Shown here: positions 3,570-62,693 of the stretch, in pieces | Position numbering within the stretch: the stretch's first letter is position 1 | Layout of the letters: the number at the start of each line of letters is the position of its first letter | Source: Costus lasius | Lineage: Eukaryota > Streptophyta > Magnoliopsida > Zingiberales > Costaceae | Direction: 5' to 3' | NCBI GenBank assembly: GCA_027563935.2 | Contig: CM050451.1 | Location: 27,295,565 to 27,359,564, forward strand | Length of the DNA: 64,000 nucleotides | The notes under the pieces: generated by a model | What the model was told of the DNA's origin: nothing | Database searches by the model: none | The model's input: the letters and a program-made list of their open reading frames with translations, nothing else | Made by a program: the position numbers and the translations under genes

Positions 3570-5245
3570 TGTTGGGGTATGCCCTTAAGGCTAATGTTTG
3601 AGGCCTATGGGAATGTATCAGTATCATGTAATAAACTCTTATGTTTATAAAGGCATGGTTGTTATTCAGTTAAGTTACATTGTCTGCTGCAATATATGTT
3701 CTTCTGAATAATGTCTCAAAGCTGTTCAGCTAGGCTGACATGCTATTATGTCCTTAGTCGATATATCTTGGTGAACATGAGACAGCCTTGATATGATTGA
3801 GACTAATATGTGTTCTAATCTTATAGGATGCTTCGAGCATGGAATAAGATGTAGACTCATGGGTACATTGGATGTGCTGGACAGACCCTACTAGGATGTT
3901 CAATTGTTTGTCACAATGTGAATATTCCTTGAATGTGACAAGTGGCACATTTCCTTTGACTTGAGATCACTTGTGTTTTCTAAATGATGATTGTCATTGT
4001 TTTGAGGTAGTTCAATATCATTTGAAACATAATGATTATAGACTATCTTGGATGGTGAGCTTGAATCAGGTTAGGGCACTAGTGATAGACATAGGATTGC
4101 CGTCTCCTTGTTTAAGGAGTGTGATGTTCTAAAGGGGCCCCATGGATGAGATGATTGAGAGAGTGTATGGCCATACCCAGGTGACTGTGTTCATCTGATC
4201 TAATCATGCTTATCATATTGGAGTTACAAGCTTGACAAGCTTGTCCAATAAGAACATCTAGTGGCAAAGGAAATATGCATGCCTTGTGAGTTGATTCACA
4301 CTTGTGCTGTGGTTTGGGTGTAGTCTTGGAAGACTCTTTCCTTTATATCGGGAGACAGTGATGTGTTGCTAGATACCCCTCACTGATCGTGATAATGAGA
4401 ATTATCGTTACCGACATTTAGAGGAAACCCTCAGGGTCGCACAATTTGATGATATGGCTTACTTAAGTCAGATCGTGTGGACTGAATTGTTCAGGTTCAG
4501 TTTAAAGGGATTTAATCTCTGATTGTAAGTGAGATCTGGTCTGATCATGTTTGATTGATTAGGGCTTGAGATCGGTAAGCTTCGATCGAGAGAATGGATG
4601 CTAGATCGGTCAGATCAAGAGCATCAAAGAGATCGACGGTTAGATCTGAAGCCTTAGGGTTTAATTAAGATCTAGACCATATTGCTTGGGATAATTGGTC
4701 TTGGACCAAACCGTGAAGAACCGGCTCATGAATGAGCGCATGGTTCAAAGTGAAGAGAAGTTTGCGCTTGGGTAAAACCGAAGTCGCATGAGAGCATGAA
4801 CGTGGGAGTGGTTTTCTATTTTTAGAAACCACGACTCCTAAGCGTGGTCACATCTCTCTCGCTTCATTCACACCTTGTCGCCGCGCTTGGCTAGAGGGTC
4901 TTGAGGCATTCTCGCGTGGAGGAGAAGCTAAGACGACAAGGAAGTTTTCGCCAAGGAGATCTCTCATCCTTTTCCACTCGACAAGAACCTTTGGAGAACC
5001 TTGCTAGCACAAGGATCAACAAAGAGTAGGCGACATCACCTTGTGTGCGCCACCTAAGGAGGAGATCCATTTCGCTCTCTCATTCCAAGACACCATCCAA
5101 GTGATGGCAATGGTGAGTATCGCTTTTCATTATAAGTTGATCATATTACATGCTTTAAGATCGCATAGGAAACCCTAGATTCCGCTAGAAATTTTGTTGC
5201 GCCTCCTATTAGGGTTTCGCCCCCTCTTGAAAGGGGTTCCCTGCA
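3570..5245 (+). repeat. Copia B 5' LTR
   Basis: Starts TGTTGGGGTATGCCC and ends GGTTCCCTGCA, followed by the primer-binding site. It holds the 12-bp palindrome GTATGGCCATAC (4165-4176), a second dyad GATAAT-GAGA-ATTATC (4391-4406), a partly self-complementary stretch around CTATTTTTAG at 4816 that may serve as a TATA-like box, and the mini-exon with splice donor at 5104-5118. Confidence 0.96.
5104..5118 (+). promoter_or_regulatory. Putative LTR mini-exon end and splice donor (B)
   Basis: ATGGCAATG is followed by GTGAGT, a consensus plant 5' splice site. The exon ends on a codon boundary at 5112. Joined to the acceptor at 7053 it enters the gag frame in phase 0, giving gag a Met-Ala-Met start encoded in the LTR. 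The same arrangement occurs at 12511, 22601, 26684 and 32236, and on the minus strand ending at 33501 and 27775. Splicing is inferred, not shown. Confidence 0.6.
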
Positions 5246-5247
5246 AT

Positions 5248-5259
5248 TGGTATCAGAGC
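5248..5259 (+). other. Primer-binding site of copia B
   Basis: TGGTATCAGAGC, two bases after the LTR end, complements the 3' end of plant initiator tRNA-Met and primes minus-strand DNA synthesis. Confidence 0.95.
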
Positions 5260-6541
5260 GAAGGTTCATGCATGATAATATGATTGCTTTGATTTTGTGT
5301 TCCATGAATGCTTAGATCTATATCATGCGAAATTTTATCATGTTGATTTGTTTCATACCGAAACCTATTTCATGTTTCATTTGCGCATGTATGATGATAT
5401 ATTGGCGCATCTTGGTTTTCTCAAAACTATTTTACATGCGCGACTCACTATAGATCTAAGGCCCTCCTATAAACCCTTAGACGGGTTATTAGGGTTGAAG
5501 TCACCCCCTGAGTTAGATCCAAACGGTCTGATCAGACTATCTGACAGCCTGAATGGGTCGACCAGATAGCACCTTGGCGCAAGCCTGTGGTGGCTATAGG
5601 TCGACTGCAGACAGGTGTGTAGCGATGTCTGATTGAGACAACCTATGAACACACATGAGTTAGGCCCGGGGTCACACCCGCTTGCCAGACCTCAATGTGG
5701 TTGTTCAGCCCTGACGCAAGCATGGTTGACCTTATGGTCGACTCAAGTCAATTAGGACTTGGTGCATGCTAGGGCAGTGGATCTGACTAGGTTGGATGAG
5801 TGGATCCCTGGTAATGGACCGTTGTAAGGTTGAAGGGCGAATAAGGAAATTAAATTGATACCTATGGGGTTTTTTCAAAATTTTAATTTTCTTCGTTGGA
5901 TCACATGTTTGAATGATGCATATGTTTGTCTATTTAGTCTTATGTGGGCTGCCCATATTAATTGTGTACTGTGCTGGGGCCTGCGTGCCTGGGATTTACA
6001 ATTGTAAATTAATTGTTATTTTTGTGATCTGCGAATCACAGTTTAATTAATTTATAATGTCATATTGACCTGCGTGTCAATCTTGTCTAGATAGTTAAAT
6101 TTGTAATTTAATTAGACAAGAGCACTGAGCACACTTGGCAGAGGCGCATGCAGCAGTGGCTGGACCAGGTGGGAGGTCTAGGGTTCGACCCTAGGACCTG
6201 GCGCAATTTTCCTGGTGGGTGCACCAGAGCTGCAATTGGCGCTTGGGCCCTGTTTTGGGCCAGATGAGCAGCAAAAGACCCATGAACAGCAAGTGAAGAC
6301 TTGATTTAGGTTAAGGTCTCACTAGGGCTATGGGCTTTTACCACATAAGATTCATGCTTTCTTTTATTTACTGTTTAAATATTAGAATTGCATGATTAAG
6401 TTTATCTTCTGCTATCACCATAGGAATTGCATGATAGTGAAAGAAGATAAAAGACCGTTAAAATCCAACGCTAAATATCAAGCTCGTAAGCCTTCTGACG
6501 CGAAACCTCACTATTCTGATTATCGTTGGAGCCGTGTTGTA

Positions 6542-6879
6542 CCCACTCAGTGGGCACGTCCATCTATCTTCAGACGGTGCGGGATTACACCTGTGTGTTA
6601 CAGAGTGGGGATTTATCCCTTCTCGTTGCTCAGCATAGCACATGGTGGTCCAGGGAGTAGGTCGGGTCAGCTTGACCGTGTGGGCTACATATGTGGCGCA
6701 TATGGTAGCACATGGAGGCAGCCATCTGTGGGGTCAGAGACTGTGTTGTACCAACTCAGTTGGCACAGTCTGCTGGATTGCCCAGATGAAGGGGAATCGC
6801 ACGGGTTGGCGATCGGCAGGGAATGCCTACCGGAGATTAGTGCTTGTACTCTCTGTGCATCTTATCTCGCCTGAGCGGG
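6542..6879 (+). other. Three conserved leader hairpins (B)
   Basis: Hairpin 1 is CCCAC-TCA-GTGGG (6542-6554), hairpin 2 is CCAAC-TCA-GTTGG (6751-6763), and hairpin 3 is CTCGC-CTGA-GCGGG with one G-U pair (6866-6879). Spacing is 209 and 115 nt. The same three positions in C, D and E carry hairpins with altered but still paired stems. Confidence 0.75.
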
Positions 6880-7033
6880 ACGCGGAGACCAAGTATGAAA
6901 TCCGGATCCCATCTCACTAAAAGAATACTACTCTTTCGGGCTGTTTTGCTGGATTTTTCAGCCAGATAAAAATAGTGAGAAAAGGAATCTTTCTTAAGTC
7001 CTGATTGATTCTTATACATTGATACTGACCTTG

Positions 7034-7053
7034 CTGTTCTTGCATTGTTGTAG
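7034..7053 (+). promoter_or_regulatory. Putative splice acceptor before gag (B)
   Basis: A T-rich tract ending TTGCATTGTTGTAG. The terminal TAG is also an in-frame stop for gag, so the conserved gag frame cannot extend upstream unless the intron is removed. Confidence 0.6.
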
Positions 7054-7074
7054 ATACCTGCAGCAACGAACACC

Positions 7075-10000
7075 ATGAACTTCAATGTGCGATCCCTACT
7101 GGAAAGGGAGAAGTTTGCTGGGCCGAACTTCTCTGACTGGTTTGGACACCTTAAGATCGTTCTTAAGGCAGAGAGGAAACTGTATGTCCTCGAGACGGCG
7201 ATACCGCCGCAGCCCGCTCCGAACGCCGCAAGGGCGGTTCGGGAAGCCTATGAAAAGCACGTCAATGATAGCATTGATGTCGCTTGCCTGATGCTAGCGT
7301 CTATGACGCCACCGCTGCAGCGTCAGCATGAGGATATGTCAGCTATACAGATTATAGCGAACCTCAAGATGCTGTATGCTGCACAGGCAAGGACTGAGCG
7401 CTACAATTTGACGAAGCTCTTCTTTCAGAGCAAACTGGCTGAAGGGAGCCCAGTGGGAGCTCACGTGCTCAAGATGATTGGGCACAAGGAGGCTCTAGAG
7501 AAACTGGGGCATACCATCAACCAGGAGCTTGCTGTGGACATTATTCTGCAGTCTCTCCCGCCTTCATTCGACGCGTTCATTATTAATTTTAATATGAACA
7601 AAATCGATTGTACTCCGGCAGAGCTGCTGAATATGCTCTTGACCACTGAGGAGACTCTGAAGGGTAAGCCTTCGACCTCTGTCTTAATGGTTCCTTCTAG
7701 GAACAAGAAGAAGGGGAAGAAGGGCAAGGCCACTGTCAAGAGCTACAGCAAGGCTCTGAAGCAAAAGGTCAAGCGGTCTAAGGAATACAGGTGTTTCCAC
7801 TGTGGCCAGCTGGGTCACTGGAAAAAGGACTGTAAAGCGCTCCAAGGAGATAAGAGGGGAAGCATTGCTTCTGGCTCAGGTATATTCGTGACTGAGGTCA
7901 TGTTTTCTTCTTCTATATCATGGGTGTTGGACACTGCATGTGGAGTTCACATTTGTTCAAATGTACAGGAACTCAAGAGAAGAAGGCAGGTGGGACAGCA
8001 TGAGGTGGACCTACGCGTTGGAAACGGAGCACGGGTTGCTGCTGTTGCTGTAGGAGACTACTTCATTTCTTTACCATCTGGCATTGTATTGGAACTAGAC
8101 AATTGTTACTTTGTTCCCAGTATTACTAAAAATATTATCTCCATTCCTGCTCTTGTCAGGAAGGGATTTTCCTTTGAATGCAATATTTCAAAGTGTGTTT
8201 TATCTTTAGATAATATTGTTTATGCAACTGGTTCAATTAGCAATGGGTTATTCATGTTGGACATGGAATGTTCGATACAGCAAATTGATATTAAGAAAGC
8301 CAAGTATGCTGATGACAGCACCTTGTTATGGCATAGTCGTTTAGGCCATATTAACGAGAAACGCATTAAGCGGTTGCATGATAATGGACTGCTGGGATCA
8401 TTCTCCTACAAGGAGATTGATACATGCAAATCTTGTTTGATGGGTAAAATGACGAAGTCACCTTTTCTTCATAAAGGTCAAAGGGCTTCAGGTTTACTTG
8501 ACCTTATACACAGTGATGTGTGTGGGCCATTTAGTAAACATGCCAGAGGTGGCTATCAGTACTTCATTACCTTTACTGATGATTTCAGTAGGTATGGTTA
8601 TGTCTATCTGATGAGACATAAAAGTGAATCTTTTGACAAGTTCAAAGAATTCAAAAATGAAGTACAGAATCAGTTAGGCCGAAATATCAAGGCACTTCGC
8701 TCAGATCGAGGTGGTGAATACCTAAGTCATGCATTTACTGACTATCTAAAGGAGTGTGGGATTATCTCACAGCTCACTCCGCCAGGAACACCGCAATGGA
8801 ATGGTGTGTCCGAGAGGAGAAATAGAACGTTACTTGATATGGTTCGTTCTATGATGAGTCAGGCTTCTTTACCCAACTCCTTTTGGGGTTTTGCGCTGGA
8901 AACAGCTGCAAAGGTACTAAACCGAGTGCCATCCAAGGCAGTTTCTAAGACTCCATATGAGTTATAATATGGGAAACAGCCGAGCTTGACATTTATCAGG
9001 ATCTGGGGCTGCGAGGCTTATGTCAAAAAGCTCGCCTCTGGGAAACTAGAGAGCAGATCTGACAAATGTATCTTTGTCGGTTACCCTAAGGAAACTAAGG
9101 GTTATTATTTCTACGATCCCAAGGAGAACAAGGTTTTTGTTGCTCGGACGGCCATATTTCTTGAGAAGGAGTTTCTTCTGCAAGAGGCCAGTGGGAGAGA
9201 AATAAAGCTGGATGAGAATCCAGAAGAAGGACAAAGTGACCAAGCAGAGTTGGATGAGCCTGAGCCGGTAGAACAGGTTATTGAACAACCTGAGGCTCAG
9301 ATATCACGGGAACCGCGAAGATCGGGAAGGATCCGTCGACAGCCTGAGCGCTATGACGGAGTCTACATCATTGATCATGATGAACCCCTCACTTATGCGG
9401 ATGCGGTCAGTGGACCGGATTCAGCGAGATGGCTTGAAGCTATGCGCGCCGAGATGGACTCCATGTCAGATAACCAAGTTTGGGATTTGGTTGATCCGCC
9501 TCCGGGAGTTATCCCTATAGGCTGTAAATGGATCTTCAAGAAGAAGATTGACATGGATGGTAACGTAGTTACCTATAAAGGCAGGCTAGTTGCGAAAGGT
9601 TTCAAACAAATCTACGGGATAGATTATGATGAAACTTTCTCACCTGTAGCCATGTTTAAGTCTATTCGGATTCTTTTCGCGATAGCTGCATACTATGATT
9701 ATGAGATCTGGCAGATGGATGTGAAAACAGCTTTCCTTAATGGAAATCTGGATGAGGATGTGTACATGACACAACCAGAGGGTTTCACTAATCCAGCAGA
9801 TCGTCATAAGATATGCAAGTTAAAGAAGTCTATTTATGGACTTAAGCAAGCATCTAGAAGCTGGAATATTCGTTTTGATGAATCAGTCACCGAATTTGGT
9901 TTCATCAAGAACGAGGATGACCCGTGTGTATATAAGAGGTTTAGTGGGAGCGTAATTACTTTTCTAGTCCTCTACGTCGATGACATCTTGATCATTGGAA

Positions 10001-10956
10001 ATGACATTCCTGAAATGCATGCTGTTAAGGCATGGCTGAGGAAATGTTTCCAGATGAAAGATTTAGGAGAAGCAGCCTATGTATTAGGTGTGAAGATCTA
10101 CAGGGATAGATCTAAGAGGCTTCTCGGGCTGTGCCAGAGTACTTACATCGATAAAGTCCTGGAGAGATTTCATTTAGAGAATTCTAAACGAGGATATCTT
10201 CCAGTCAGACATGGTCTGAATCTTTCGAAGAGTCAGTGTCCACAAACACAGACTGAGAAAGATGAAATGGACAATACGCCTTATGCTTCGGCTATTGGTT
10301 CCATTATGTATGCGATGTTGTGTACTCGCCCAGACGTCGCTTACGGGTTAAGCGTGACCAGTCGTTTCCAAAGTAATCCAGGTATGGCGCACTGGATTGC
10401 AGTCAAGAACATTTTAAAATATCTGCGGAGGACCAAAGATATGTTCTTGATATATGGTGGTCAGGAAGAACTCAGTATTGAAGGATATACTGACGCTTCG
10501 TTCCAGTCTGACCAGGATGATTTCCGATCGCAATCAGGCTATGTTTTTAGCTTGAATGGAGGTGCAGTGGTGTGGAAGAGTTTCAAACAGTCAACTGTTG
10601 CTGATTCCACAACAGAAGCCGAGTATGTTGCAGCCTCGGAAGCATCCAAGGAGGCAGTGTGGATTCGTAAGTTCGTGAGAGAACTTGGTGTTGTTCCTTC
10701 GAGTGCAGATCCTTTGGTTATCTTCTGTGATAACACTGGAGCAATTGCACAAGCAAAGGAACCACGGTCGCACCAGAAGTCCAAGCACATACAGAGACGG
10801 TTTCATTTGATCAGGGAGATCATAGATCGTGGCGAGATCAAAATCTGCAAGGTTCATACAGATGACAATCTGGCAGACCCGCTTACCAAGCCTCTGGCGC
10901 AGCAGAAGCATGAGAAGCACTGTAATAATATGGGTTTGAGATTTCTCAACCATTAG
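7075..10956 (+). CDS. Copia B gag-pol polyprotein, one in-frame stop
   Basis: One continuous frame of about 1,293 codons interrupted only by TAA at 8965-8967, between integrase and RT, where relatives have Trp. Domains: capsid-like gag (residues 1-230), zinc knuckle CFHCGQLGHWKKDC (240-253), protease with WVLDTAC (around 283; the family usually has DSG), GAG-pre-integrase LLWHSRLGH (about 417), integrase catalytic core with D in HSDVCGPF, D in RSDRGGEY and E in GVSERRN, RT with YVDDILIIGND (about 966), and RNase H with YTDASF, EAEYVAASEA and DNTGAIA. Every catalytic block is present. The frame is open from 7054, and ATG 7075 is the first internal ATG, but the true start may be the LTR mini-exon. 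The stop probably blocks RT synthesis from this copy. Confidence 0.95.
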
Positions 10957-10976: not shown

Positions 10977-12653
10977 TGTTGGGGTATGCCCTTAAGGCTA
11001 ATGTTTGAGGCCTATGGGAATGTATCAGTATCATGTAATAAACTCTTATGTTTATAAAGGCATGGTTGTTATTCAGTTAAGTTACATTGTCTGCTGCAAT
11101 ATATGTTCTTCTGAATAATGTCTCAAAGCTGTTCAGCTAGGCTGACATGCTATTATGTCCTTAGTCGATATATCTTGGTGAACATGAGACAGCCTTGATA
11201 TGATTGAGACTAATATGTGTTCTAATCTTATAGGATGCTTCGAGCATGGAATAAGATGTAGACTCATGGGTACATTGGATGTGCTGGACAGACCCTACTA
11301 GGATGTTCAATTGTTTGTCACAATGTGAATATTCCTTGAATGTGACAAGTGGCACATTTCCTTTGACTTGAGATCACTTGTGTTTTCTAAATGATGATTG
11401 TCATTGTTTTGAGGTAGTTCAATATCATTTGAAACATAATGATTATAGACTATCTTGGATGGTGAGCTTGAATCAGGTTAGGGCACTAGTGATAGACATA
11501 GGATTGCCGTCTCCTTGTTTAAGGAGTGTGATGTTCTAAAGGGGCCCCATGGATGAGATGATTGAGAGAGTGTATGGCCATACCCAGGTGACTGTGTTCA
11601 TCTGATCTAATCATGCTTATCATATTGGAGTTACAAGCTTGACAAGCTTGTCCAATAAGAACATCCAGTGGCAAAGGAAATATGCATGCCTTGTGAGTTG
11701 ATTCACACTTGTGCTGTGGTTTGGGTGTAGTCTTGGAAGACTCTTTCCTTTATATCGGGAGACAGTGATGTGTTGCTAGATACCCCTCACTGATCGTGAT
11801 AATGAGAATTATCGTTACCGACATTTAGAGGAAACCCTCAGGGTCGCACAATTTGATGATATGGCTTACTTAAGTCAGATCGTGTGGACTGAATTGTTCA
11901 GGTTCAGTTTAAAGGGATTTAATCTCTGATTGTAAGTGAGATCTGGTCTGATCATGTTTGATTGATTAGGGCTTGAGATCGGTAAGCTTCGATCGAGAGA
12001 ATGGATGCTAGATCGGTCAGATCAAGAGCATCAAAGAGATCGACGGTTAGATCTGAAGCCTTAGGGTTTAATTAAGATCTAGACCATATTGCTTGGGATA
12101 ATTGGTCTTGGACCAAACCGTGAAGAACCGGCTCATGAATGAGCGCATGGTTCAAAGTGAAGAGAAGTTTGCGCTTGGGTAAAACCGAAGTCGCATGAGA
12201 GCATGAACGTGGGAGTGGTTTTCTATTTTTAGAAACCACGACTCCTAAGCGTGGTCACATCTCTCTCGCTTCATTCACACCTTGTCGCCACGCTTGGCTA
12301 GAGGGTCTTGAGGCATTCTCGCGTGGAGGAGAAGCTAAGACGACAAGGAAGTTTTCGCCAAGGAGATCTCTCATCCTTTTCCACTCGACAAGAACCTTTG
12401 GAGAACCTTGCTAGCACAAGGATCAACAAAGAGTAGGCGACATCACCTTGTGTGCGCCACCTAAGGAGGAGATCCATTTCGCTCTCTCATTCCAAGACAC
12501 CATCCAAGTGATGGCAATGGTGAGTATCGCTTTTCATTATAAGTTGATCATATTACATGCTTTAAGATCGCATAGGAAACCCTAGATTCCGCTAGAAATT
12601 TTGTTGCGCCTCCTATTAGGGTTTCGCCCCCCTCTTGAAAGGGGTTCCCTGCA
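10977..12653 (+). repeat. Copia B 3' LTR
   Basis: Near-identical partner of 3570-5245. I find two substitutions (C at 11665 against T in the 5' LTR, A at 12290 against G) and one extra C in the run near 12627-12632. It carries the palindrome at 11572-11583, the second dyad at 11798-11813 and the ATG/donor at 12511-12525. Confidence 0.96.
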
Positions 12654-12658: not shown

Positions 12659-14525
12659 GGGACAACTCTGGTACTTGAGAGACTGGTATGTGGGCTGGTT
12701 AGGCACGTGGTGCTAACGCAGACACATGGGTATATCATTGGAGGATATACTGGACAGACCCGCTGTGAGGCTATGACTTGGTGTCATGAGTTATCCTCAC
12801 AAGTGACAGGAGATGCATTGATCCCTTGACTTGAGGTCATTGGCCATTCTATATGGTTAGGGATATGCTTTGATACAACCTAACACCTCGCCGTAGTTTG
12901 GGGGTAATAACGGTTGTCATTGAGCATGTCACGACCCATATGAGAAGGTCAATGGACAGACAAAGGATTTGCCCCTTCATGAAGGAAGCTTGATATCCAT
13001 GGAGCTCCTCTATGGTTCTATGACTGAAAGTGTATGGCCATACCCAGGTGCGAACCTGATTTAGTCATAGCCATGTGATTGGATGAAAACAAGTGGTGAC
13101 ACACTTGTCCAATCGGATATCAGTACGACAAAGAGACTGTAATGCATCTGTACCTAGTTGCGATGATGGGGATGTCGATGTCAATATCCATTCCGATGAC
13201 TTGGGTAGTAGTGATGCACTGCTAGGTGCCACTCACTGCTTGTGGTGACATTTGGTCAGCACTGCCAACGTCAGAGGGACCTACAGGGTCGCACACCTTG
13301 ATACTCGAGTTCTCGTATTGATCGGGAAGCCTTATGATCGAGTTATTGGATAACTCGGATCTATTTGGGAGATTTCATCAGCGCCAATGGGCCTAATGAG
13401 ATGGAAGAATGTTATTGGAGCCAAACTTCATTTTTGGCAGGTTGACCCGTATTTGACCATGGTTGGCCACATTTGAATTAGGGTTGCATTGGATTGGATC
13501 CAAGTGCTTAATCAACCCATGTAATGAAGTTTGGGCTAGCTCGTTATCCAATGAGGCCCGATAACAAGTTCTCATGAAGTGAGAAAAGGTTAAAAGGGTA
13601 TAATGGGGACAAAACTTCTCCCCTAGGCGCCTATGGGCATAATGGGGAGAAGTGGCGCAATTTGCTTCATTAGGAAGCTTTAGGCGCCTTGCCCCTCTAC
13701 CTTGGATGGTATGCTTGCTTCTATGGCAAGTCTTGGGGCTGATATGGCTTGATAGACTTCTTTGGAAGGTCTCATGCGCATATGGATAATTAGGAGAGGT
13801 TTATGGTAAAGTCTTGGAGACTTTCCTTACCTCAAACCCTAATTACTCTCTCCCCTTTACCCTAGCCGCCTCCTCCTTTGAGAATTGCGCCCACACCCTA
13901 TTATTGCTGCCCCCTCTTGCCTCTCTATATATACATGGGTATATGCGTGAGCAAGGGATTGATTTTTTGGCGTGAGCAAGAATTAGAAGGGTAAAGAGGG
14001 AGGCTTTGGCGAAAGTCTTCTCTTCCATCTTCATCCTAGTCACAAGTCTCATCTATCCTTCTTCTCTTGGAGCAAGGACGGATAGGACTTGGTGTCTTCA
14101 CCCTCTTGCCTCTTATCTTGGCGCACCTTCTCTAGGAGTTGGCGCAAATAAGGATGAGGAATTGAAGACATGGCGGCAACATCTCCATCTTTCTTCTTCA
14201 TTGGCGCTTCTACTTTAGAAGTGGCGCAAGGGTTGAAGAAAGTGCACGAAGGCTTGGATCTTCTTCCCGAGGCTAGCACCGGGCGTGGAAGAAGAGGACT
14301 CGAGGAATCCGTGTGTGCGAGACTGCAGAGGGCGAACACTTGGGCGCCTTCATCGACATCGACCTCATCTTGCTCTGAGGTATTTTCTAACTCATCGTGT
14401 CGACCCCCTTGCATGCGATCTTCACTGGTTTTTTGGGACCGGCCTGTTTCGGGGACATTCTTCCGCTGTGCAATGTATGTATGTGTCTCTGAAAAATTGT
14501 AAAATGTCCCCGGGGTTTCCTAACA
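12659..14525 (+). repeat. Copia A 3' LTR, part 2
   Basis: Continues the LTR split by copia B; the reunited LTR is about 2.07 kb. It carries GTATGGCCATAC at 13032-13043, a TATA box CTATATATAC at 13925-13934 and a donor-like GTATTT at 14380. It ends GGTTTCCTAACA at 14525. The next bases, ACCTC, are the likely target duplication, whose partner lies left of the window. Small open frames inside have no recognisable product. Confidence 0.9.
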
Positions 14526-21102: not shown

Positions 21103-22731
21103 TGTTGGGGTATGCCCTTAAGGCTAATGTTTGAGGCCTTAGGTTATTTTCAGTATCATGTATGAACTATGTTTATAAAGGCAATTGTTGTTATTCAGAT
21201 TGTTACATTATCTGCTGTATGTATACTTCTGAGTAATGTCTTAATGGTGTTCAGCTTAGCTGACATTTAGTGTTGTCCTTAGTCGAGATATCTCGGTGAA
21301 CATGAGACAGCCTTGATATGATTGAGACTAATATGTGATCTAATCTTATAGGATGCTTCGAGCATGGAATAAGATTTAGACACATAGGTGCATTGGATGT
21401 ACTGGACTGACCCTATTTAGGATATTCAATTGTTTGTCACAATGTGAATAATCCTTATATGCAAGCAAGTGGCATATTCCCTCTGACTTGAGATCACTTG
21501 TGTTTCTAAGTGATGATTGGCATTATCTTGAGGTAGTTCAATATCATTTGAAAGATAATGGTTAAGGACTATCTTGGATAGTGAGCATGAGTCATGTTAG
21601 GGCACTAGTGATAGATATAGGATTGCCTCTCCTAGTAGGAGTGTGATGTTCTAAGGGCCCCCTGGATGAGATGGTTGAGAATGTGTATGGCCATACCCAG
21701 ACGACTATGTTCGTCTGATCTAATCATTTTCATCATGTTGGAATCACAGGCTTGACACGCTTGTCCAACGGGAACATCCAGTGGCAAAGGGAAACATGTA
21801 TGCCAAGTGAATTAGATTCACACTTATGCTGTGGTTTGGGAGTAGTCTTGGAAGACTCTTTCCTTCATATCGGGAGACAGTGATGTGTTGCTAGATACCT
21901 CTCTCTGATCGTGATAACGTAAGTTATCGTTACCGACATTGAAGGAAACCCTAAGGGTCGCACAATTTGATGATTTGGCTTACTTATGTCAGATCGTGTG
22001 GACTGGGATTATTCTAGTTCAGTTTAAAGCAATTTAAACTCTGATTGGAAGTGAGATCTAGTCTAATCATGTTTGATTGGTTAGGGCATATGATCGGTAA
22101 GCTTCGATCGGGAGAATTGATGCTTGATCATAAAGATCAAGAGGTTCAATGAGATGTGTGGTTAGATCTTGAGCCACTTGGTTCAAAGAGATCTTAACCA
22201 GGGCTGGTTCAATTTGGTGCTTGAACCAAATTGGGATTGAACCAGTTCACTTAGTGAACGCATGGTTCAATTAAGAGGGAAGTTTCGATTGCAAAGAAGG
22301 GAGTTACATTTCGGTTTTACCATGTGTGGTAGTGGCCGAACTTTCCTTTCTTGGTCTCTCCCCTCACGGTTTCGAAACTCTCTAGTGTGCTTCCTCTTTT
22401 TCGCCTCTTCATCATCTTCACGACAAGGAAGAAAGTCGACCAGCCAAGAGTGCACATCTCCTCTCCAAGACACGATCAAAGACTCCTTAGTGTCTTTGCT
22501 AGCACAAGGAGCACAAGGAAGAAGCAAACTTCATCTTATGTGTGATACTTTTGGAGGAGAGGCACTCGCCCCTTTCTTCTTCCAAGCCACCACTCAAAGC
22601 ATGGCAATGGTAATGCTCTAACTTATCCTTTCAAAGTTGATCATATGTTTAAGTCATGCGATCTTTGAAACCTAGTATTTCCGCCGCTGCAAAATTTTCG
22701 AATGCGCATGTGACCTAGGTTTCCACTTTCA
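21103..22731 (+). mobile_element. Solo B-family copia LTR 1
   Basis: A 1629-bp LTR, TGTTGGGG...TTTCA, flanked by CCATT at 21098-21102 and 22732-22736, with no internal region. It is a solo LTR left by recombination between the two LTRs of a former element. It keeps the palindrome (21685-21696), the dyad GATAAC-GTAA-GTTATC (21913-21928) and the mini-exon ATGGCAATG with GTAATG at 22601-22615. Confidence 0.95.
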
Positions 22732-25158: not shown

Positions 25159-26815
25159 TGTTGGGGTATGCCCTTAAGGCTAATGTTTGAGGCCTTGGGT
25201 TGTTATCAGTATCATGTATAAACTCTATGTTTATAAAGGCAATGGTTGTTATTCAGGTTGTTACATTATCTGCTGCTATATGTATACTACTGAATAATGT
25301 CTCAATTGTGTTCAGCTTAGCTGACATGCAGAAATGTCCTTAGTCGAGATATCTTGGTGAACATGAGACAGCCTTGATATGATTGAGACTAATATGTGTT
25401 CTAATCTTATAGGATGCTTCGAGCATGGAATAAGATGTAGACTCATAGGTACATTGGATGTACTGGACAGATCCTACTTAGGATATTCAATTGCTTGTCA
25501 CAATGTGAATAATCCTTATATGCAAGCAAGTGGCATATTTCCTCTGACTTGAGATCACTTGTGTTTCTAAATGATGATTGGCATTGTCTTGAGGTAGTTC
25601 AATATCATTTGAAATATAATGGTTATAGATTATCTTGGATAATGAACATGAGTCATGTTAGGGCACTAGTGATATATATAGGATTGCCTTCTCCTTGTTT
25701 GGAGTGTGATGTTCTAAAGGGGCCCCCTGGATGAGATGGTTGAGAAAGTGTATGGCCATACCCAGATGACTATGTTCATCTGATCTAACCACTCTCATCA
25801 TATTGGAATTACAGGCTTGACACGCTTGTCTAATAAGAACATCCAGTGGCAAAGGAAACACATATGTCATGTGACTTGGGTTCACACTTGTGCTATGGTT
25901 TGGGTGTAGTCTTGGAAGACTCTTTCCTTTATATCGGGAGACAGTGATGTGTTGCTAGATACCCCTCTCTGTTCATGATAACGTAAGTTATCGTTACCGA
26001 CATTTAAAGGAAACCCTTAGGGTCGCACAATTTGATGATATGGCTTACTTATGTCAGATCGTGTGGACTGAATTGTTCTGATTCAGTTTAATAGGAGTTT
26101 AAACTCTGATTGGAAGTGAGATCTGGTCTGATCATGTTTGATTGATTAGGGCTTGAGATCGGTAAGCTTCGATCGAGAGAATTGATGCTTGATCGGTGAG
26201 ATCAAGAGCATCAAGAGATATGTGGTTAGATCTTGAGCCATTTGGTTCATATGAGATCTAGATCATGGCTTGGTTCGGTTTGGTCTTTGAACCAAATGCA
26301 AAAGAACCGGTTCACATAAGTGAACGCATGGTTCATTGTGAGAAAGTATTTTGGTTAGAAACGTGAGCGCATGGCTTGATGGCTTTCTATTTTTGGAAAC
26401 CCATGAAGCGTTCCCACGTTGGATAACGCCTTAACGCCTCCCTCTCTCTCGCTTGAAGTTTTTTCCTCTCGTGTGTGTGTGTCTTAGAGATACGAAAGAG
26501 GAAGAGAAGGAGAGAGCTTTCGGCCAGCAAGATTAACATCTCATCTCCTCCATTCGATTAGGGGATCTTGGCGTCTTTGCTAGCACAAGGTTAACGCGCA
26601 AGGAGGATGCCATCATCACCTTTGTGTGAGTCCACTTTGGAGGAAAGCCGCGTCGCCTTCTTCTTCCAAGTCGCCATCCAATCATGGCTATGGTATGATC
26701 TTTTATTTGATCTTGGCAAATTCTTAAGTTGATCATATATTCATGCCTTATGCGATCTTCATGAAACCCAAGAAAAATTTTTATATGCGCCTGCTTAGGG
26801 TTTCTCTATCTTACA
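25159..26815 (+). mobile_element. Solo B-family copia LTR 2
   Basis: A 1657-bp LTR, TGTTGGGG...CTTACA, with GATGT at 25154-25158 and 26816-26820. Palindrome at 25750-25761, dyad GATAAC-GTAA-GTTATC at 25977-25992, and mini-exon ATGGCTATG with donor GTATGA at 26684-26698. Confidence 0.95.
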
Positions 26816-27643: not shown

Positions 27644-28971
27644 TGAAAGTGGGGGGCGAAAACCCTAAACGCATGCGCTTCTAAAATTTGCATGGGCGGA
27701 AATAGGGATTTCATGAAGATCGCATGTGGCATGAACATATGATTAACCTTATGTTCGCAAAGATCAAGTTGTGATCTTACCAAAGCCATTGTTTGGATGG
27801 CGACTTGGAAGCAAGAGGGCAAGCGGCTCTCCTCCAAAGTGGACGCACACAAGGTGATGATGGCTTTCTCCCTTGGCGTAAACCTTGTGCTAGCAAAGCT
27901 CTTCAAGGAGTCCTCGATGCGTGAAGGAGATGAGATGCTTTTCTTGGCTGACCGAATCTCCTTCTTGGCGTGAAGACAACCCAAGACGAGAGGAGAAGAG
28001 GCGAGAGCACGATGACGTTAGAACGTGGGAGCGTTTCTTTTCTCAAAGAAAAACGCCTTCCAAATATAGTATGTTCACAACTCCACTTGAAGCCACCACT
28101 TAAAGCCATCGATAACTCCTCTCCTCTTTGAAGCATGCGTTCACATAAGTGAACCGGTTCAATTTAATTCGGTTCAATTGCATTTGGTTCAAAGACCAAA
28201 TCAAACCAGCATTGGTTCAGATCTTGTCAAACCAAATGGCTCAAGATCTAACCATTCATCTCTTGATACTCCTGATCTCATCGATCAAGCATCAATTCTC
28301 TCGATCGAAGCTTACCGATCTCAAGCCCTAATCAATCAAACATGATCAGACCAGATCTCACTTACAATCAGAGTTTAAACTCCTTTAAACTGAACCAAAA
28401 CAATTCAGTCCACACGATCTGACATAAGTAAGCCATATCATCAAATTGTGCGACCCTAAGGGTTTCCTTTAATGTCGGTAACGATAACTTACGTTATCAC
28501 GAACAGAGAGGGGTATCTAGCAACACATCACTGTCTCCCGATATAAAAGAAAGAGTCTTCCAAGACCACACCCAAACACAGCACAAGTGTGAATTCAATT
28601 CACTAGGCATACATGTTTCCTTTGCCACTGGATGTTCTCGTTGGACAAGCGTGTCAAGCCTGTAACTCCAACATGATGAGAGTGGTTAGATCAGATGAAC
28701 ATAGTCATCTGGGTATGGCCATACACTTTCACAACCATCTCATACAGGGGGCCCCTTTAGAACATCACACTCCAAACAAGGAGAGGCAATCCTATATCTA
28801 TCACTAATGCCCTAACATGACTCCTGCCCATTATCCAAGATAATCTATAACCATTATATTTCAAATGATATTGAACTACCTCAAGACAATGCCAATCCTC
28901 AGTTAGAAACACAAGTGATCTCAAGTCAGAGGAAATATGCCACTTGTTTGCACATAAGGAAATATGCCACT
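27644..28971 (-). repeat. Element E 3' LTR, truncated
   Basis: Matches 33370-34685 closely, but the first 355 bp of the LTR (element orientation) are missing at the deletion junction near 28960-28971. Palindrome at 28715-28726 and dyad GATAAC-TTAC-GTTATC at 28483-28498. ATG/donor equivalent on the minus strand at 27789-27775. Confidence 0.9.
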
Positions 28972-29023: not shown

Positions 29024-29869
29024 TCACAAAATACCTGAGCCAGAAGCGAAAGGCTTGCTTCCCTTCTTATCTCCTTGGAGCGCTTTACAGTCCTTCTTCC
29101 AGTGACCCAGCTGGCCACAATGGAAGCATCTGTTGTCCTTCGACCGCTTCATCTTTTGTTTCAGAGCTTTGTTATAGCTCTTGATAGGGGCTTTGCCCTT
29201 CTTCCCCTTCTTCTTGTTCCTTGAAGGAACCATCAAGACAGAGGATGAAGGCTTTCCCTTTTCAAGAGTCTGCTCTGTAGTACAGAGCATGTTCAGTAAC
29301 TCTGCCGGTGTACAGTCGATCTTGTTCATATTAAAATTAATGATGAACGGATCGAAAGAGACCGGGAGAGACTGCAAGATAATGTCTACAACAAGTTCCT
29401 GATTGATGGTGTGTCCCAGTTTCTCTAGAGCCTCTTTGTACCCAATCATCTTGAGTACGTGAGCTCCTACTGGACTCCCTTCAGTCAGTTTGCTCTGAAA
29501 GAAAAGTTTTGTCAAGTTATAGCGTTCTGTCCTTGCTTGTGCAGCATACAGCATTTTGAGATTTGCTATAATTTCAATAGCAGATAAATCCTCATGCTGA
29601 CGCTGCAGCTCTGGCGTCATAGACGCAAGCATAAGGCAAGCGACATCAATGCTATCATTGACATGCTTCTCATAAGCATCCCGAACCGCCCTTGCGGCGT
29701 TCGCAGCGGGTTGAGGCGGTATTGCCGTCTCAAGGACATACAGCTTCCTCTCAGCCTTAAGAACAATCTTAAGGTGTCCGTACCAGTCTGAGAAGTTTGG
29801 CCCAGCAAACTTCTCCCTTTCCAATAAGGATCGCACATTGAACCCTGTGGTGTTCGTTGCTGCAGGAAT
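29024..29869 (-). CDS. Element E gag (intact, no ATG of its own)
   Basis: About 281 codons open from the acceptor at 29870 to a stop at 29024. The protein is very close to gag of copia B, with capsid-like region, basic linker and zinc knuckle CFHCGQLGHWKKDC. The stop comes from a one-base loss in the protease start relative to B. The position of the ATG of B (7075) is ACA here. The first in-frame ATG lies about 60 codons into the conserved protein, and TAG stands directly upstream at the acceptor. A start supplied by the spliced LTR exon (minus strand, 33515) is the simplest way to express it. Gag would package RNA; pol is absent. Confidence 0.85.
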   Translation of the reverse strand: MPAATNTTGFNVRSLLEREKFAGPNFSDWYGHLKIVLKAERKLYVLETAIPPQPAANAARAVRDAYEKHVNDSIDVACLMLASMTPELQRQHEDLSAIEIIANLKMLYAAQARTERYNLTKLFFQSKLTEGSPVGAHVLKMIGYKEALEKLGHTINQELVVDIILQSLPVSFDPFIINFNMNKIDCTPAELLNMLCTTEQTLEKGKPSSSVLMVPSRNKKKGKKGKAPIKSYNKALKQKMKRSKDNRCFHCGQLGHWKKDCKALQGDKKGSKPFASGSGIL

Positions 29870-30706: not shown

Positions 30707-32404
30707 TGTTGGGGTATGCCCTTAAGGCTAATGTTTGAGGCCTTGGGATTCTATGTGTATCATGTATATAAACTCTTATGTTTATAAAGGCAATGGTTGT
30801 TATTCAGTATGTTACATTGTCTGCTGCAATAAGTGTGCTTCTGAATAATGTCTCAATGCTGTTCAGCTAGGCTGACATGCTGTAATGTCCTTAGTCGAGA
30901 TATCTTGGTGAACATGAGACAGCCTTGATATGATTGAGACTAATATGTGCTCTAATCTTATAGGATGCTTCGAGCATGGAATAAGATGTAGACTCATGGG
31001 TACATTGGATGTACTGGACAGACCCTACTAGGATGTTCAATTGCTTGTCACAATGTGAATAATCCTTGTTTGCAACAAGTGGCACATGTCCTCTGACTTG
31101 AGATCACTTGTGTTTCTAAATGATGATTGTCATTGTTTTGAGGTAGTTCAATATCATTTGAAAAAGAATGATTATAGACTATCTTGGATAATGATCATGA
31201 GTCAGGTTAGGACTCTAGTGATAGATATAGGATTGCCGTCTCCTTGTTTAAGGAGTGTGATGTTCTAAAGGGGCCCCCGCCTAAATGAGATGATTGAGAA
31301 AGTGTATGGCCATACCCAGGTGACTATGTTCATCTGATCTAATCATGCTCATCATATTGGAGCTACAGGCTTGACACGCTTGTCCAATAAGAACATCCAG
31401 TGGCAAAGGAAACATGTATGCCTCGTGAAGTGATTTCACACTTGTGCTGTGATTTGGGAGTAGTCTTGGAAGACTCTTTCCTTTATATCGGGAGACAGTG
31501 ATGTGTTGCTAGATACCCCTCACTGATCGTGATAACATAAGTTATCATTACCGACATTTAAAGGAAACCCTCAGGGTCGCACAATTTGAAGATATGGCTT
31601 ACTTGAGTCAGATCGTGTGGACTGAATTATTTGGGTTCAGTTTAAAGGGATTTAATCTCTGATTGTAAGTGAGATCTGGTCTGATCATGTTTGATTGATT
31701 AGGGCTTGAGATCGGTACGCTTCGATCGAGAGAGATGATGCTAGATCGGTGAGATCAGGAGCATCAAGAGATAAACGGTTAGATCTGGAACCATAGGGTT
31801 TGATATGATCTAGACCATGGCTTGGGCTTATTTGATTTGGTTTTCTTTGAACCAAATGCAATTGAACCAAAAGGGAGAACCGGTTCACTTATGTGAACAC
31901 ATGGTTTGAAAGGGTGAAGGCGTTTTGGTTGTTTATGAGTGCATGCTTCCATTTATGGTAAGTCATCAAGACCTCTTCTTCAAAACGCCTAACGCCAAGA
32001 CGTTCACGACTTCACTTCACTTGTCTTCTTGCATTTTTGCGTGTGGAGAAGGCGTGGACGAAGAAGTGGAGCTCTCGCCCGAGCAAGATCTCATCTTTCA
32101 TCCCTTCCATTCGGCAAGGACACTTGAAGATCTTTGCTAGCACAAAGATCAACAAGAGGAAGCCATCTCTCTTCTTGTGTGCGTCACTTGTGGAGAAGAT
32201 CTCTCTTGGTCTTTGTTTCCAAGCCGCATCCACTCATGGCTATGGTATGAACTTCCGCTTGATCCATTCAATCATTTGAAGTTGATCATAAGAATATATT
32301 ACATGCGATTTTGGTGAAAACCCTAGCATCTTCATGCGAAAATGTTATATGCGCCACCCTTAGGGTTTCACCCCCTTGCGCTCCCCCTTGAAGGGGACTC
32401 AACA
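30707..32404 (+). mobile_element. Solo B-family copia LTR 3
   Basis: A 1698-bp LTR, TGTTGGGG...CTCAACA, with CCCAC at 30702-30706 and 32405-32409. Lies in the leader of E in the opposite orientation. Palindrome 31304-31315, dyad GATAAC-ATAA-GTTATC 31531-31546, mini-exon ATGGCTATG with donor GTATGA at 32236-32250. Confidence 0.95.
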
Positions 32405-33369: not shown

Positions 33370-35040
33370 TGAAAGTGGGGGGCGAAAACCCTGAACGCAT
33401 GCGCTTCTAAAATTTGCATGGGCGGAAATAGGGATTTCATGAAGATCGCATGTGGCATGAACATATGATTAACCTTATGTTCGCAAAGATCAAGTTGTGA
33501 TCTTACCAAAGCCATTGTTTGGATGGCGACTTGGAAGCAAGAGGGCAAGCGGCTCTCCTCCAAAGTGGACGCACACAAGGTGATGATGGCTTTCTCCCTT
33601 GGCGTAAACCTTGTGCTAGCAAAGCTCTTCAAGGAGTCCTCGATGCGTGAAGGAGATGAGATGCTTTTCTTGGCTGACCGAATCTCCTTCTTGGCGTGAA
33701 GACAACCCAAGACGAGAGGAGAAGAGGCGAGAGCACGATGACGTTAGAACGTGGGAGCGTTTCTTTTCTCAAAGAAAAACGCCTTCCAAATATAGTATGT
33801 TCACAACTCCACTTGAAGCCACCACTTAAAGCCATCGATAACTCCTCTCCTCTTTGAAGCATGCGTTCACATAAGTGAACCGGTTCAATTTAATTCGGTT
33901 CAATTGCATTTGGTTCAAAGACCAAATCAAACCAGCATTGGTTCAGATCTTGTCAAACCAAATGGCTCAAGATCTAACCATTCATCTCTTGATGCTCCTG
34001 ATCTCATCGATCAAGCATCAATTCTCTCGATCGAAGCTTACCGATCTCAAGCCCTAATCAATCAAACATGATCAGACCAGATCTCACTTACAATCAGAGT
34101 TTAAACTCCTTTAAACTGAACCAAAACAATTCAGTCCACACGATCTGACATAAGTAAGCCATATCATCAAATTGTGAGACCCTAAGGGTTTTCTTTAATG
34201 TCGGTAACGATAACTTACGTTACCACGAACAGAGAGGGGTATCTAGAAACACATCACTGTCTCCCGATATAAAGGAAAGAGTCTTCCAAGACCACACCCA
34301 AACACAGCACAAGTGTGAATTCAATTCACTAGGCATACATGTTTCCTTTGCCACTGGATGTTCTCGTTGGATAAGCGTGTCAAGCCTGTAACTCCAACAT
34401 GATGAGAGTGGTTAGATCAGATGAACATAGTCATCTGGGTATGGCCATACACTTTCACAACCATCTCATACAGGGGGCCCCTTTAGAACATCACACTCCA
34501 AACAAGGAGAGGCAATCCTATATCTATCACTAATGCCCTAACATGACTCATGCCCATTATCCAAGATAATCTATAACCATTATATTTCAAATGATATTGA
34601 ACTACCTCAAGACAATGCCAATCCTCATTTAGAAACACAAGTGATCTCAAGTCAAAGGAAATATGCCACTTGTTTGCACATAAGGATTATTCACATTGTG
34701 ACAAGCAATTGAATATCCTAAGTAGGGTCAGTCCAGTACATCCAATGTACCTATGAGTCTACATCTTATTCCATGTTCGAAGCATCCTATAAGATTAGAA
34801 CACATATTAGTCTCAATCATATCAAGGTTGTCTCATGTTCACCAAGATATTTCGACTAAGGACAATACTGCATGTCAGCCAAGCTGAACACCATTGAGAC
34901 ATTATTCAGAAGTATACATATAGCAGCAGATAATGCAACACCCTGAATAACAACCATTGCCTTTATAAACATAGAGTTTATACATGATACTGATAACAAC
35001 CCAAGGCCTCAAACATTAGCCTTAAGGGCATACCCCAACA
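33370..35040 (-). repeat. Element E 5' LTR
   Basis: A 1671-bp LTR whose plus-strand ends are TGAAAGTGGGG and TACCCCAACA. Holds the palindrome at 34439-34450 and, on the minus strand, ATGGCTTTG followed by donor GTAAGA at 33515-33501. Confidence 0.95.
33501..33515 (-). promoter_or_regulatory. Putative LTR mini-exon and splice donor (E)
   Basis: Minus strand ATGGCTTTG then GTAAGA. The codon-boundary exon would join the acceptor at 29870 in phase 0 with gag. Met-Ala is kept and the third codon is Leu here. The predicted intron carries the PBS, the hairpins and solo LTR 3. Confidence 0.6.
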
Positions 35041-35453: not shown

Positions 35454-35465
35454 TGGTATCAGAGT
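35454..35465 (+). other. Primer-binding site of copia C
   Basis: TGGTATCAGAGT, four bases after the LTR end, complementary to initiator tRNA-Met with one terminal mismatch. Confidence 0.9.
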
Positions 35466-37033
35466 GACTTACGTGCCTCGAACAATGTTCTTTCATGCTC
35501 GCATGCCATATTTCAATTTTTGCAAATTGCATATCAGTGTGGCACATGTTTTTCTTTAAGTAGAAAAATTGTAGTTTCTTGTTCCTATCCACTTTTCAAT
35601 CTCTTTTGGATTTTTGGGTTATTTTTCTTGGTTGATTTAAGATCAAAGGTGCACGTAGTTTTGTCAAGTAGGACGGGCATTGTGTTTTCGGACTAGCCAA
35701 GTCTCTTGATCTGACAAAATTGTCAACCGATAGGATCTATGAAATCATCATGAAAAGTTAATCGCAAATAACCAAAAGATTTGTGAGAAGAAGATGAGGA
35801 AAGGAGACTTGTTTTATGAAAAAGTAAAATTTTAGATTTTATGTTTTTCATGAGCATGTAGAATTGCATGAGTTAGTGCCTTGTTTGTGCTTGGTGTTGT
35901 GATCATGAGTCAAGCCCCTTTGCATGCCTGTGATGTATCCTTGTGAGGCCTACGTGCCACTTTTCTTTTCCTTTTAACTAAGAAGAAGATTAGAGTGGCG
36001 CATCTACTTGGAGTTTGGTGCATGCATGAAGTTTACACACCTTGCATGGTGGCGCAACAAGCATCAAAGGTTGTGGCACAAGCTTGCTTGTTGACGCAAG
36101 AGAGCATCGCCGAGCCTTAGGGCTTGTGAGCTAGCTTTCTTGGCCCTTGCAAGGTGGCGGTTCACCCTTGGAGGACCTTGAAGCCAACCTTAAAGGTCAA
36201 GCTAGAGGTCGGCTAGGTTAGGTCTTGTTTTGGGGCTTGAGTCCTAGGTCAAGAGTTGAACCTCCTTTTGGCATGGTTTAGTTCAATGTCTTGAATGAGC
36301 TATGATCACATTATCCTTTACTGCTTTCCATATCTGCCAAGCATGCCTGTGATGTTTTATCGTTATGTTATCACTATAGGATTGCATGCCTGTAATGTTA
36401 GACATAAGATAAAACTAAGTTGATGAGACCTCAAAAACCCTAAATAAAAATATCAAGTCTAGAAGCCTTCTAATGCGTAGCCATCATCAAACTATCGATC
36501 AGTGGTGTTGTTAACTATTTCCCACCCTCGTGGGACACACCCACTTATCTTTAGATGGTGTGTGGTAACAATGGTTTCCCCAGTGCATTTTAACCGGGCG
36601 CGCCTTCGCAAGGAAACTCGTTGGCCCTAGGCATAACGATTAGGAATGGACTTCACTAGATTTTCATATGTGTTGGGCACATGATGAAACTCTAGAGGCA
36701 TCATTGAGAGGTTAGGGTTTCATGCTATATCCAGCCCTCGCTGGACATGAAATGCCTAGCTATCTCAATAAGGGGAATTGCTTGGAGCAATCGGCCGGCG
36801 TGCCCACCTTAGGAAGCATGGGTCACTTTGTACATTTCATCCCACCCTCGTGGGACGCAAAGCCTCATGTGGAATAAGGATCCCATCTCACTAGGAAATC
36901 TTAAAATTTCCCGATTGACTTTGTGAGTTGTCAATTCGATTAAAATAGTGGGAGCCATGGTCATTTAATACAAGTCCAAATTAAATGATCTGATAGTAGT
37001 ACTAATCTGCTGTTTCTTGGTTGTTATAGAACA
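35466..37033 (+). other. Copia C leader with three hairpins
   Basis: No protein-like frame. Hairpins CCCAC-CCTC-GTGGG (36521-36534), CCAGC-CCTC-GCTGG (36731-36744) and CCCAC-CCTC-GTGGG (36841-36854) occupy the same places as in B, D and E, at spacings of 210 and 110 nt. A T-rich tract ending GGTTGTTATAG (37029) resembles a splice acceptor. Confidence 0.75.
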
Positions 37034-54794: not shown

Positions 54795-55701
54795 TGATGA
54801 AGGACGTTAATCCTAGCCCAAGAATCACCCTAGGTATGTAGCTCTATGCGCAAGAGAATGATAGATTTTAAGAAGTTAGGGATTGGTGCACCTGGACCCT
54901 CTAAAGATAAGAGGGTCGAACTCCTTCGACTATTCTTGACAGTGGTTGTCGTCCAAAGATCCTTCAGCCTTTTGATGAAGTTTAGTTCAACGGTAGCCAC
55001 TTGAACCGAGAGAAGATCGATGGAAAGATGATGCCAGCAATGGAATAGTACTCGATCCGGTAAGGAACAGTAACCGCATTTTGTGTTGATGGAAGAGGAT
55101 GATCGGCAGTGGATTGTATGGAAACGTGGAATGATTAGCAACCGGTAGAGAGCAAGCTCAATCCAAAGAGGAGCACGCTAAACTCTCATAAACACAAACA
55201 CAAGGTTTTCAGATTTCCCAAAATATTCGACCTCCTGTGCAAAGTGAACCAAGCTAGCTTAAAACCTTTCCTCCCAACATAGAAACGACCCTTGGCATTC
55301 TTCACTTGCTGGCGCCTCCTCGTTTTCGTCTACTCTGGTAGGCTGGTTCTTACGCTGAGTTGGAAGTGGATATTTGCGCAAGCTATCTTCAATTTATCTT
55401 GATGGCTGACTTAGTGTTGCATTGAATACTTCATGGGATCTCCATTTGTTTTTTTTTTTTTTTTTTGGATTGAATGAGTCATGTGATCTCCATGGGTTTG
55501 ATTGAATGATGTGGATGAACTTGGATTGAATTGCTGGACATGAACTCGAGTTAACCATGGGCTGGTGTGTTGAAGTTGACACTTGAACTGAGTCTGATCA
55601 TGAGCCAGTTTGTCTTTGACATTGGTGCTTAAATTGACTTTTCTCCATGGGCTGATTTGAGCTGAACTTTCATTATGCCAAGGTCACTTCAGGGTTGGGA
55701 G
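54795..55701 (-). repeat. Gypsy I 5' LTR, cut by copia D
   Basis: Matches 48232-49138 and stops at GGGTTGGGAG, where copia D begins. GGGAG (55697-55701) is the expected duplication of D. Contains a T run of about 17 at 55449-55466. Confidence 0.9.
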
Positions 55702-57929: not shown

Positions 57930-57930
57930 G

Positions 57931-57942
57931 TGGTATCAGAGG
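57931..57942 (+). other. Primer-binding site of copia D
   Basis: TGGTATCAGAGG one base after the LTR, matching initiator tRNA-Met except for the last base. Confidence 0.92.
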
Positions 57943-62400: not shown

Positions 62401-62663
62401 TCATTCATTTGAACTTGATCTAGTTCATAGTGCTTAATGGTCCAGTGTAGTCCTTACTGGGACCATAGCATGACAGAAGGAACTTAATGCTCAAGTATGT
62501 ACTGCAGCATATCATCTGATCTTAGAGATCATGGATAAGGATGATGATCAAATTTGATAAAATAAACACAGATAGCAATCTGGAAAAACCCACTGATCCA
62601 GCCTCTGGCGCAGCGGAAGCTAAATGGGTCATACTAGAGACATTGGAACTGACTAAACATCAG
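59430..62663 (+). pseudogene. Copia D gag-pol, heavily decayed
   Basis: The gag frame is open from the acceptor to 59993 but has no ATG for more than 60 codons. It aligns at its start with B (DGTNWTKW against GPNFSDW), then loses most of the capsid region and the whole zinc knuckle. Downstream, scattered matches follow: integrase LLDLLHNDVSGP near 60480, RT around WDLDKLPK near 61330 and the LGMRIYRNPRKSLPFSQ segment near 61850, and an RNase H tail near 62580. Stops and frameshifts fall every 100-300 bases and the RT palm motif is not recognisable. No functional product. Confidence 0.88.
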
Positions 62664-62684
62664 TTGTCCTTGGTCTTAGTGCAA

Positions 62685-62693
62685 GTGGGAGAT
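62685..62693 (+). other. Polypurine tract of copia D
   Basis: GTGGGAGAT before the 3' LTR, intact although the coding sequence beside it is ruined. Confidence 0.85.

Follow-up and report, generated by a model that had tools for sequence, protein, structure and literature searches.

Plant retrotransposons with long terminal repeats (LTRs) are generally intronless, and a 2025 review names Ogre and EVADE as exceptions and also mentions BARE1 (PMC12786077). For the Ty3-gypsy element Diaspora of Glycine max, splice donors in the LTR and acceptors around the gag start were predicted in 2005; its authors noted that introns ahead of gag had not been described so far and left the relevance of the sites open (PMC1142308). 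In Rice tungro bacilliform virus (RTBV), protein P4 is made after splicing of an upstream open reading frame (uORF) in the leader to a distal open reading frame (ORF) (PMC5902531). The BARE paper poses the long-standing question of how a single retroelement transcript can act as messenger as well as genome (PMC3735527). Here we analyze a 64,000-nucleotide stretch of the Costus lasius genome (the window, numbered from its first letter), which is a nest of plant LTR retrotransposons of copia and gypsy families, and in particular its copia element B1. Judged from its sequence, it is likely that the RNA of family B is spliced from an exon in the LTR (ATGGCAATG/GTGAGT, the slash marking the predicted exon border) over a 1.9-kb leader intron bearing the primer binding site (PBS), and that the LTR supplies the AUG of gag.

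B1 has the attributes of a Ty1/copia element, namely a pair of TG...CA LTRs, a 5-bp target-site duplication (TSD) and a tRNA primer site. Its Pfam domains follow the order copia gag, zinc knuckle, gag_pre-integrs and integrase, with RVT_2 in the next ORF piece, i.e. a copia-type gag and RVT_2 with the integrase ahead of the reverse transcriptase. The leader between PBS and gag measures about 1.8 kb. The features of B1 are as follows.

3570-5245, plus strand: 5' LTR, TG...CA, identified by the LTR pair and the TSD GATAT
5104-5112, plus strand: ATGGCAATG, predicted coding end of LTR exon 1, kept in all seven family B LTRs
5113-5118, plus strand: GTGAGT, predicted splice donor
5113-7053, plus strand: predicted leader intron of 1941 nt, characterized by ATG count and U content
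5248-5259, plus strand: PBS TGGTATCAGAGC, inside the predicted intron
7023-7053, plus strand: branch-like TACTGAC (7023-7029), pyrimidine-rich tract and TAG acceptor
7054-8964, plus strand: gag-to-integrase ORF piece of 637 amino acids, opening at the acceptor and followed by an in-frame stop
8968-10953, plus strand: second ORF piece (reverse transcriptase), in the same frame as the first
10977-12653, plus strand: 3' LTR with a copy of the ATG/donor motif at 12511

A sequence-only reading of the window had placed ATGGCAATG at 5104-5112 with GTGAGT directly next to it at 5113, and a pyrimidine-rich acceptor ending at 7053 in a TAG that lies in the gag frame as a stop. All of these were read at exactly those positions, with TTGTAG as the acceptor and the gag ORF opening at 7054, and exon 1 does end on a codon boundary, giving the phase 0 junction with gag that had been described. 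Both family B copies that contain gag, B1 and a second element named B2, have an ORF beginning exactly at the TAG acceptor. The B1 junction is TTGTAG/ATACCTGCAGCA (7048-7065), and the B2 frame is placed as follows.

29024-29869, minus strand: B2 gag ORF, opening right after TTGTAG and reading IPAATNTTGFNV

The first in-frame ATG of B2 gag is codon 80. Simple initiation at the B1 ATG at 7075 was rejected as an explanation for the family, since B2 has no such ATG. Over 278 codons, the gag sequences of B1 and B2 differ with a dS of 0.557, a dN of 0.050 and a dN/dS of 0.089; therefore, gag probably stayed functional in the lineages separating the two copies. The stretch IPAATNT ahead of the internal B1 ATG differs between them by one synonymous base and is similar to the N-termini of gag proteins from relatives, such as MAPAASNT and like sequences, MAPAASNTSSFNLRS in P0102 and MAAPAPSSFNLRS in an Oryza protein. 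At the protein level, to which this comparison is confined, many relatives among the matches listed start with a Met that is separated from the conserved block by a few residues. These matches come from a first search with 47 proteins (the best-scoring one 53% identical), all N-termini of which were inspected, and from a second search, the best 120 of 2165 of which were taken; 113 of these were new (P0048-P0160) and had their N-terminal 55 residues inspected. Close full-length relatives of B may stand further down the second list. No gene model fusing an LTR exon to gag was seen among the 47 proteins and the best 120 of 2165, and two scans of viral contigs gave no relatives. Several copia polyproteins of Trifolium repens among P0068-P0088 are labelled 'secreted RxLR effector protein' in the database, apparently by misannotation.

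The start codon and donor recur throughout family B. With both strands of the window counted, the motif ATGGCWWTGGTR is matched seven times, the expectation from 100 shuffles being 0.10, and all seven lie in family B LTRs. Besides the two LTRs of B1, these are the following.

33370-35040, minus strand: B2 5' LTR with ATGGCTTTG at 33515-33507, donor GTAAGA at 33506, PBS from 33367 and TSD AAGAG
27644-28961, minus strand: B2 3' LTR, truncated at its 5' end, with ATG/donor at 27789
30707-32404, plus strand: solo B LTR S3, TSD CCCAC, with ATG/donor at 32236
25159-26815, plus strand: solo B LTR S4, TSD GATGT, with ATG/donor at 26684
21103-22731, plus strand: solo B LTR S6, TSD CCATT, with ATG/donor at 22601 (GTAATG)

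Because two of them are the 5'/3' pairs of one element each, the seven LTRs represent five independent insertions (B1, B2 and the three solo LTRs), every one flanked by a different 5-bp TSD, and the conservation comparison covers these five. The sequence-only reading had held that all seven copies keep both the motif and a GTRWG donor; the former is true of every copy, but the latter of six, given the GTAATG at 22601. It had also described the motif as kept despite divergence elsewhere. Indeed, 9 of its 11 columns are invariant among the five insertions, the pairwise identity of which is 0.51-0.69 in the R/U5 part (repeat and 5' unique region) of the LTR, and the remaining two columns alternate between A and T, in one case without effect on the amino acid (GCN, Ala). 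However, 12 of 530 eleven-column windows match this degree of conservation, and they fall into three blocks. The idea that the ATG/donor block surpasses all other parts of R/U5 in conservation was thus rejected; two further blocks exist, and it does not rank first among the three.

The most conserved R/U5 block of family B is GCTAGCAC, which is common to the LTRs of families A, B and C (about 5010-5017 in B1, about 57682-57689 in C and about 14281-14288 in family A) and sits upstream of the predicted donor in all three. The third block, GTTGATCATA, is found at about 5136-5146 in B1 and at homologous sites, just inside the predicted intron.

The surroundings of the LTR ATG and of the predicted splice sites are mostly consistent with a spliced leader. 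The predicted B1 intron contains 44 ATGs, which together with two in the LTR exon make 46 ahead of the ATG at 7075. Upstream of the LTR ATG, the sequence is free of ATGs for 305 nt in B1, 278 nt in S3, 317 nt in B2 and 407 nt in family C, and 1.2% of sampled window positions have an ATG-free run of at least 270 nt in front of them. With the donor consensus MAG/GTRAGT as a reference, the B1 donor at 5113 matches at 8 of 9 positions and ranks first among the 16 GTs of the B1 R/U5. For the acceptor a criterion was drawn up after the sites were known: a YAG, a branch-like CTNAY motif whose A lies 18-45 nt ahead of the exon, absence of any AG between the two and at least 60% pyrimidine. It is passed by 76 of 127830 window positions (both strands, the sites discussed here counted in) and by six of the seven gag starts considered, which belong to B1, B2, C, the family A copy A' and three outside relatives, L001, L002 and L003. 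Moreover, the acceptor abutting gag is the sole passing site in the leaders of B1 (5246-7100), C, A' (35454-37100) and L001; no passing acceptor was found in positions 60-1300 of L002, and the scan of L003 covered 140 nt. The predicted introns are also rich in U, with 30.9% in B1 versus 23.6% and 21.2% in the flanking exons, 31.3% versus 22.7% and 28.0% in C, and 35.2% versus 24.7% and 24.0% in L001. A difference in U content between intron and exons has likewise been reported for BARE1 (PMC3735527).

A similar arrangement was found in family C, which is represented by an element at 55696-64000.

55696-57929 (start approximate), plus strand: family C 5' LTR, followed by the PBS at 57931
57766-57795, plus strand: ORF from the LTR ATG, open to donor GAG/GTACAT at 57796 or CAA/GTAAAA at 57787, both in phase 0
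59430-59990, plus strand: gag ORF of 187 codons, directly after TTGTAG, with no ATG before codon 78

The LTR of this family carries ATGGCTTCGACATCTAAACAAGTAAAAGAG/GTACAT, and both candidate donors are in phase 0 with its gag. The latter was recognized as such by an hhalign probability of 98.5% against alignment A3 and by 29 of 99 residues identical to B1 gag, and its first 140 residues had no match in a Pfam search. The element may be degenerate because of this missing match and because its pol lies in several frames. Its LTRs are 99.2% identical over 1315 nt (the 3' partner runs past the window end), a near-identity which, side by side with the scattered pol frames, would fit recent mobilisation of a defective copy with the aid of a helper. 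When the LTR of C is aligned to three family A LTR segments, its ATG falls in an 8-column insertion; the three segments have no ATG at this position and retain AG/GTATTT or AG/GTTTTT.

Other relatives show an acceptor-like AG beside gag that is closely followed by the gag ATG. In A' this ATG follows the acceptor by 4 nt.

37005-37036, plus strand: family A' branch-like motif, acceptor TTATAG and gag ATG at 37034

One scan of prokaryote genome contigs yielded five plant-like copia loci, L001-L005. They are filed under bacterial records (Streptomyces, Labilibacter, Bradyrhizobium, Solirubrobacter) and probably represent contamination. The three contigs that reach the gag start (L001, L002 and L003) all have a YAG 0-6 nt before the gag ATG. 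L001 has an LTR donor CAAG/GTATGG that ranks first among 24 GTs and is preceded by 176 nt free of ATGs, and its PBS lies within the predicted intron. L005 has a donor-like site in its LTR that ties for first of 19, while L004 contained nothing bearing on an LTR donor or a gag acceptor. In these few elements, the position of the gag ATG just after a YAG suggests that the usual condition may be a leader intron preceded by an LTR exon without coding function, and that the LTR start codon may be derived. Compared with family A and the outside relatives, B and C have probably moved the AUG into the LTR exon, while other families keep it behind the acceptor, and the leader intron itself is probably common to the copia group.

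According to the proposed mechanism, transcription would start in the LTR upstream of 5104, and splicing would make the LTR ATG the first AUG of the RNA. The predicted protein would begin with Met-Ala-Met, followed by the Ile-Pro-Ala-Ala-Thr-Asn-Thr of gag. The spliced RNA would act as messenger and could not be primed for reverse transcription, because the PBS is removed with the intron. The unspliced B1 RNA would open with a closed ORF of 24 codons and serve as genome. That the translated RNA is spliced and takes its first gag codons from the LTR had been proposed from the sequence alone and gains support at the sequence level here, since most of the sequence tests agree with it. Support comes from B2, which lacks an early gag ATG while its gag has been under purifying selection, from the N-terminal likeness upstream of 7075, from the sole passing acceptor in the B1 leader and from the same phase 0 design in the independent family C.

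Several observations weigh against an LTR start codon supplied by splicing. Other R/U5 blocks of family B are conserved as well as or better than the ATG/donor block, and two of the five insertions, S4 and S6, have an extra ATG 74 and 60 nt upstream, the one in S6 being in frame and open. Not every donor stands out, because that of B2 is only second of 18 R/U5 GTs, the two candidates of family C tie with three other GTs for first of 28, and the L002 donor is not the best of 27. Apart from its late definition, the acceptor criterion fails at the gag start of L002 and is passed by a second site in the B2 leader. Furthermore, an in-frame stop interrupts the B1 gag-pol and the pol matches of family C are spread over several frames, so that the activity of these copies is only putative. 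Finally, B1 gag has an ATG of its own, which could be used (7075, codon 8 of exon 2).

The last point leads to the alternative that the leader is spliced with exon 1 as mere 5' untranslated region, gag starting after the acceptor (at 7075 in B1) and the LTR ATG being incidental or a regulatory uORF. We regard it as unlikely. It agrees with the ATG at codon 8 of exon 2 in B1 and with the gag ATGs 0-6 nt past the acceptor in A', L001, L002 and L003, but B2 and C offer no ATG before codons 80 and 78, the codons ahead of 7075 are conserved and similar to the N-termini of relatives, and in either family the LTR ATG would read into gag in phase 0. Very unlikely, in our view, is an unspliced leader passed by ribosome shunting or internal entry, with the LTR ATG as a short uORF promoting the shunt. 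The LTR ATG of the unspliced RNA indeed gives a short ORF (24 codons in B1), and pararetroviruses shunt past a long leader after such an ORF (PMC5902531). However, a shunted ribosome would meet no early gag AUG in B2 and C, for which reason this explanation was rejected, and it would leave the acceptor-like site at the gag boundary unexplained. Chance combined with decay, i.e. an LTR block kept for integration or reverse transcription and degenerate copies that lost their gag start, is likewise very unlikely. The equal conservation of other R/U5 blocks, the in-frame stop in the B1 gag-pol, the several frames of the C pol and the limitation of the comparison to five insertions fit it. However, it explains neither why two families have a phase 0 gag frame that begins precisely at an acceptor-like site nor why the gag-abutting site is the sole passing acceptor in four leaders.

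If splicing to an LTR start codon does occur, the PBS-spanning intron upstream of gag would make the two roles of the RNA mutually exclusive at the step of splicing. It would also account for long, ATG-rich leaders and for gag copies that seem to have no start codon. Solo LTRs could in this case serve nearby genes as first exons carrying a start codon and give host exons a new N-terminus. We see an even chance for the more general view that a whole group of plant copia elements makes all of its protein from spliced RNA free of the PBS, that splicing sorts messenger from genome, that two or more families have shifted the AUG of gag to the LTR, and that a solo LTR is a mobile promoter with start codon and splice donor.

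Parts of the proposed arrangement are familiar from other retroelements. The env mRNA of avian sarcoma-leukosis virus gains its start codon by splicing, the gag of yeast Ty1 begins inside the LTR, and foamy virus as well as human T-cell leukaemia virus type 1 have a splice donor inside the LTR. To our knowledge, no system joins these features in such a way that a spliced RNA yields gag with an LTR AUG. A report of a gag start codon spliced in from the LTR was not found in searches of the open-access literature, and a term search of a paper on CRM elements gave no match to 'splic', 'intron' or 'start codon' (PMC3059260). The P4 case of RTBV is similar to family B in that splicing joins a short ORF of the 5' leader to a distal translated ORF (PMC5902531), and at the sequence level both B and C have a short ATG ORF that use of the donor and acceptor would join in phase to a distal one. 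RTBV differs in being a pararetrovirus, in having ORF IV instead of gag as the distal ORF and in using the leader instead of an LTR as the source. Caulimovirids are not known to have LTRs or an integrase, whereas LTRs and an integrase core are present in B1. Diaspora shares with family B the long leader, the predicted LTR donors and the predicted acceptors near the gag start, but it is a gypsy and not a copia element, and its putative gag start codon lies downstream of the leader (PMC1142308). BARE1 and EVADE are plant copia elements, too, and they have a spliced RNA and use different RNA forms for protein and for replication, as is predicted for B; however, their intron is situated at the end of gag or over the protease and results in a gag-only RNA (PMC3735527, PMC12786077, PMC8892269), whereas the predicted intron of family B lies wholly upstream of gag and includes the PBS.

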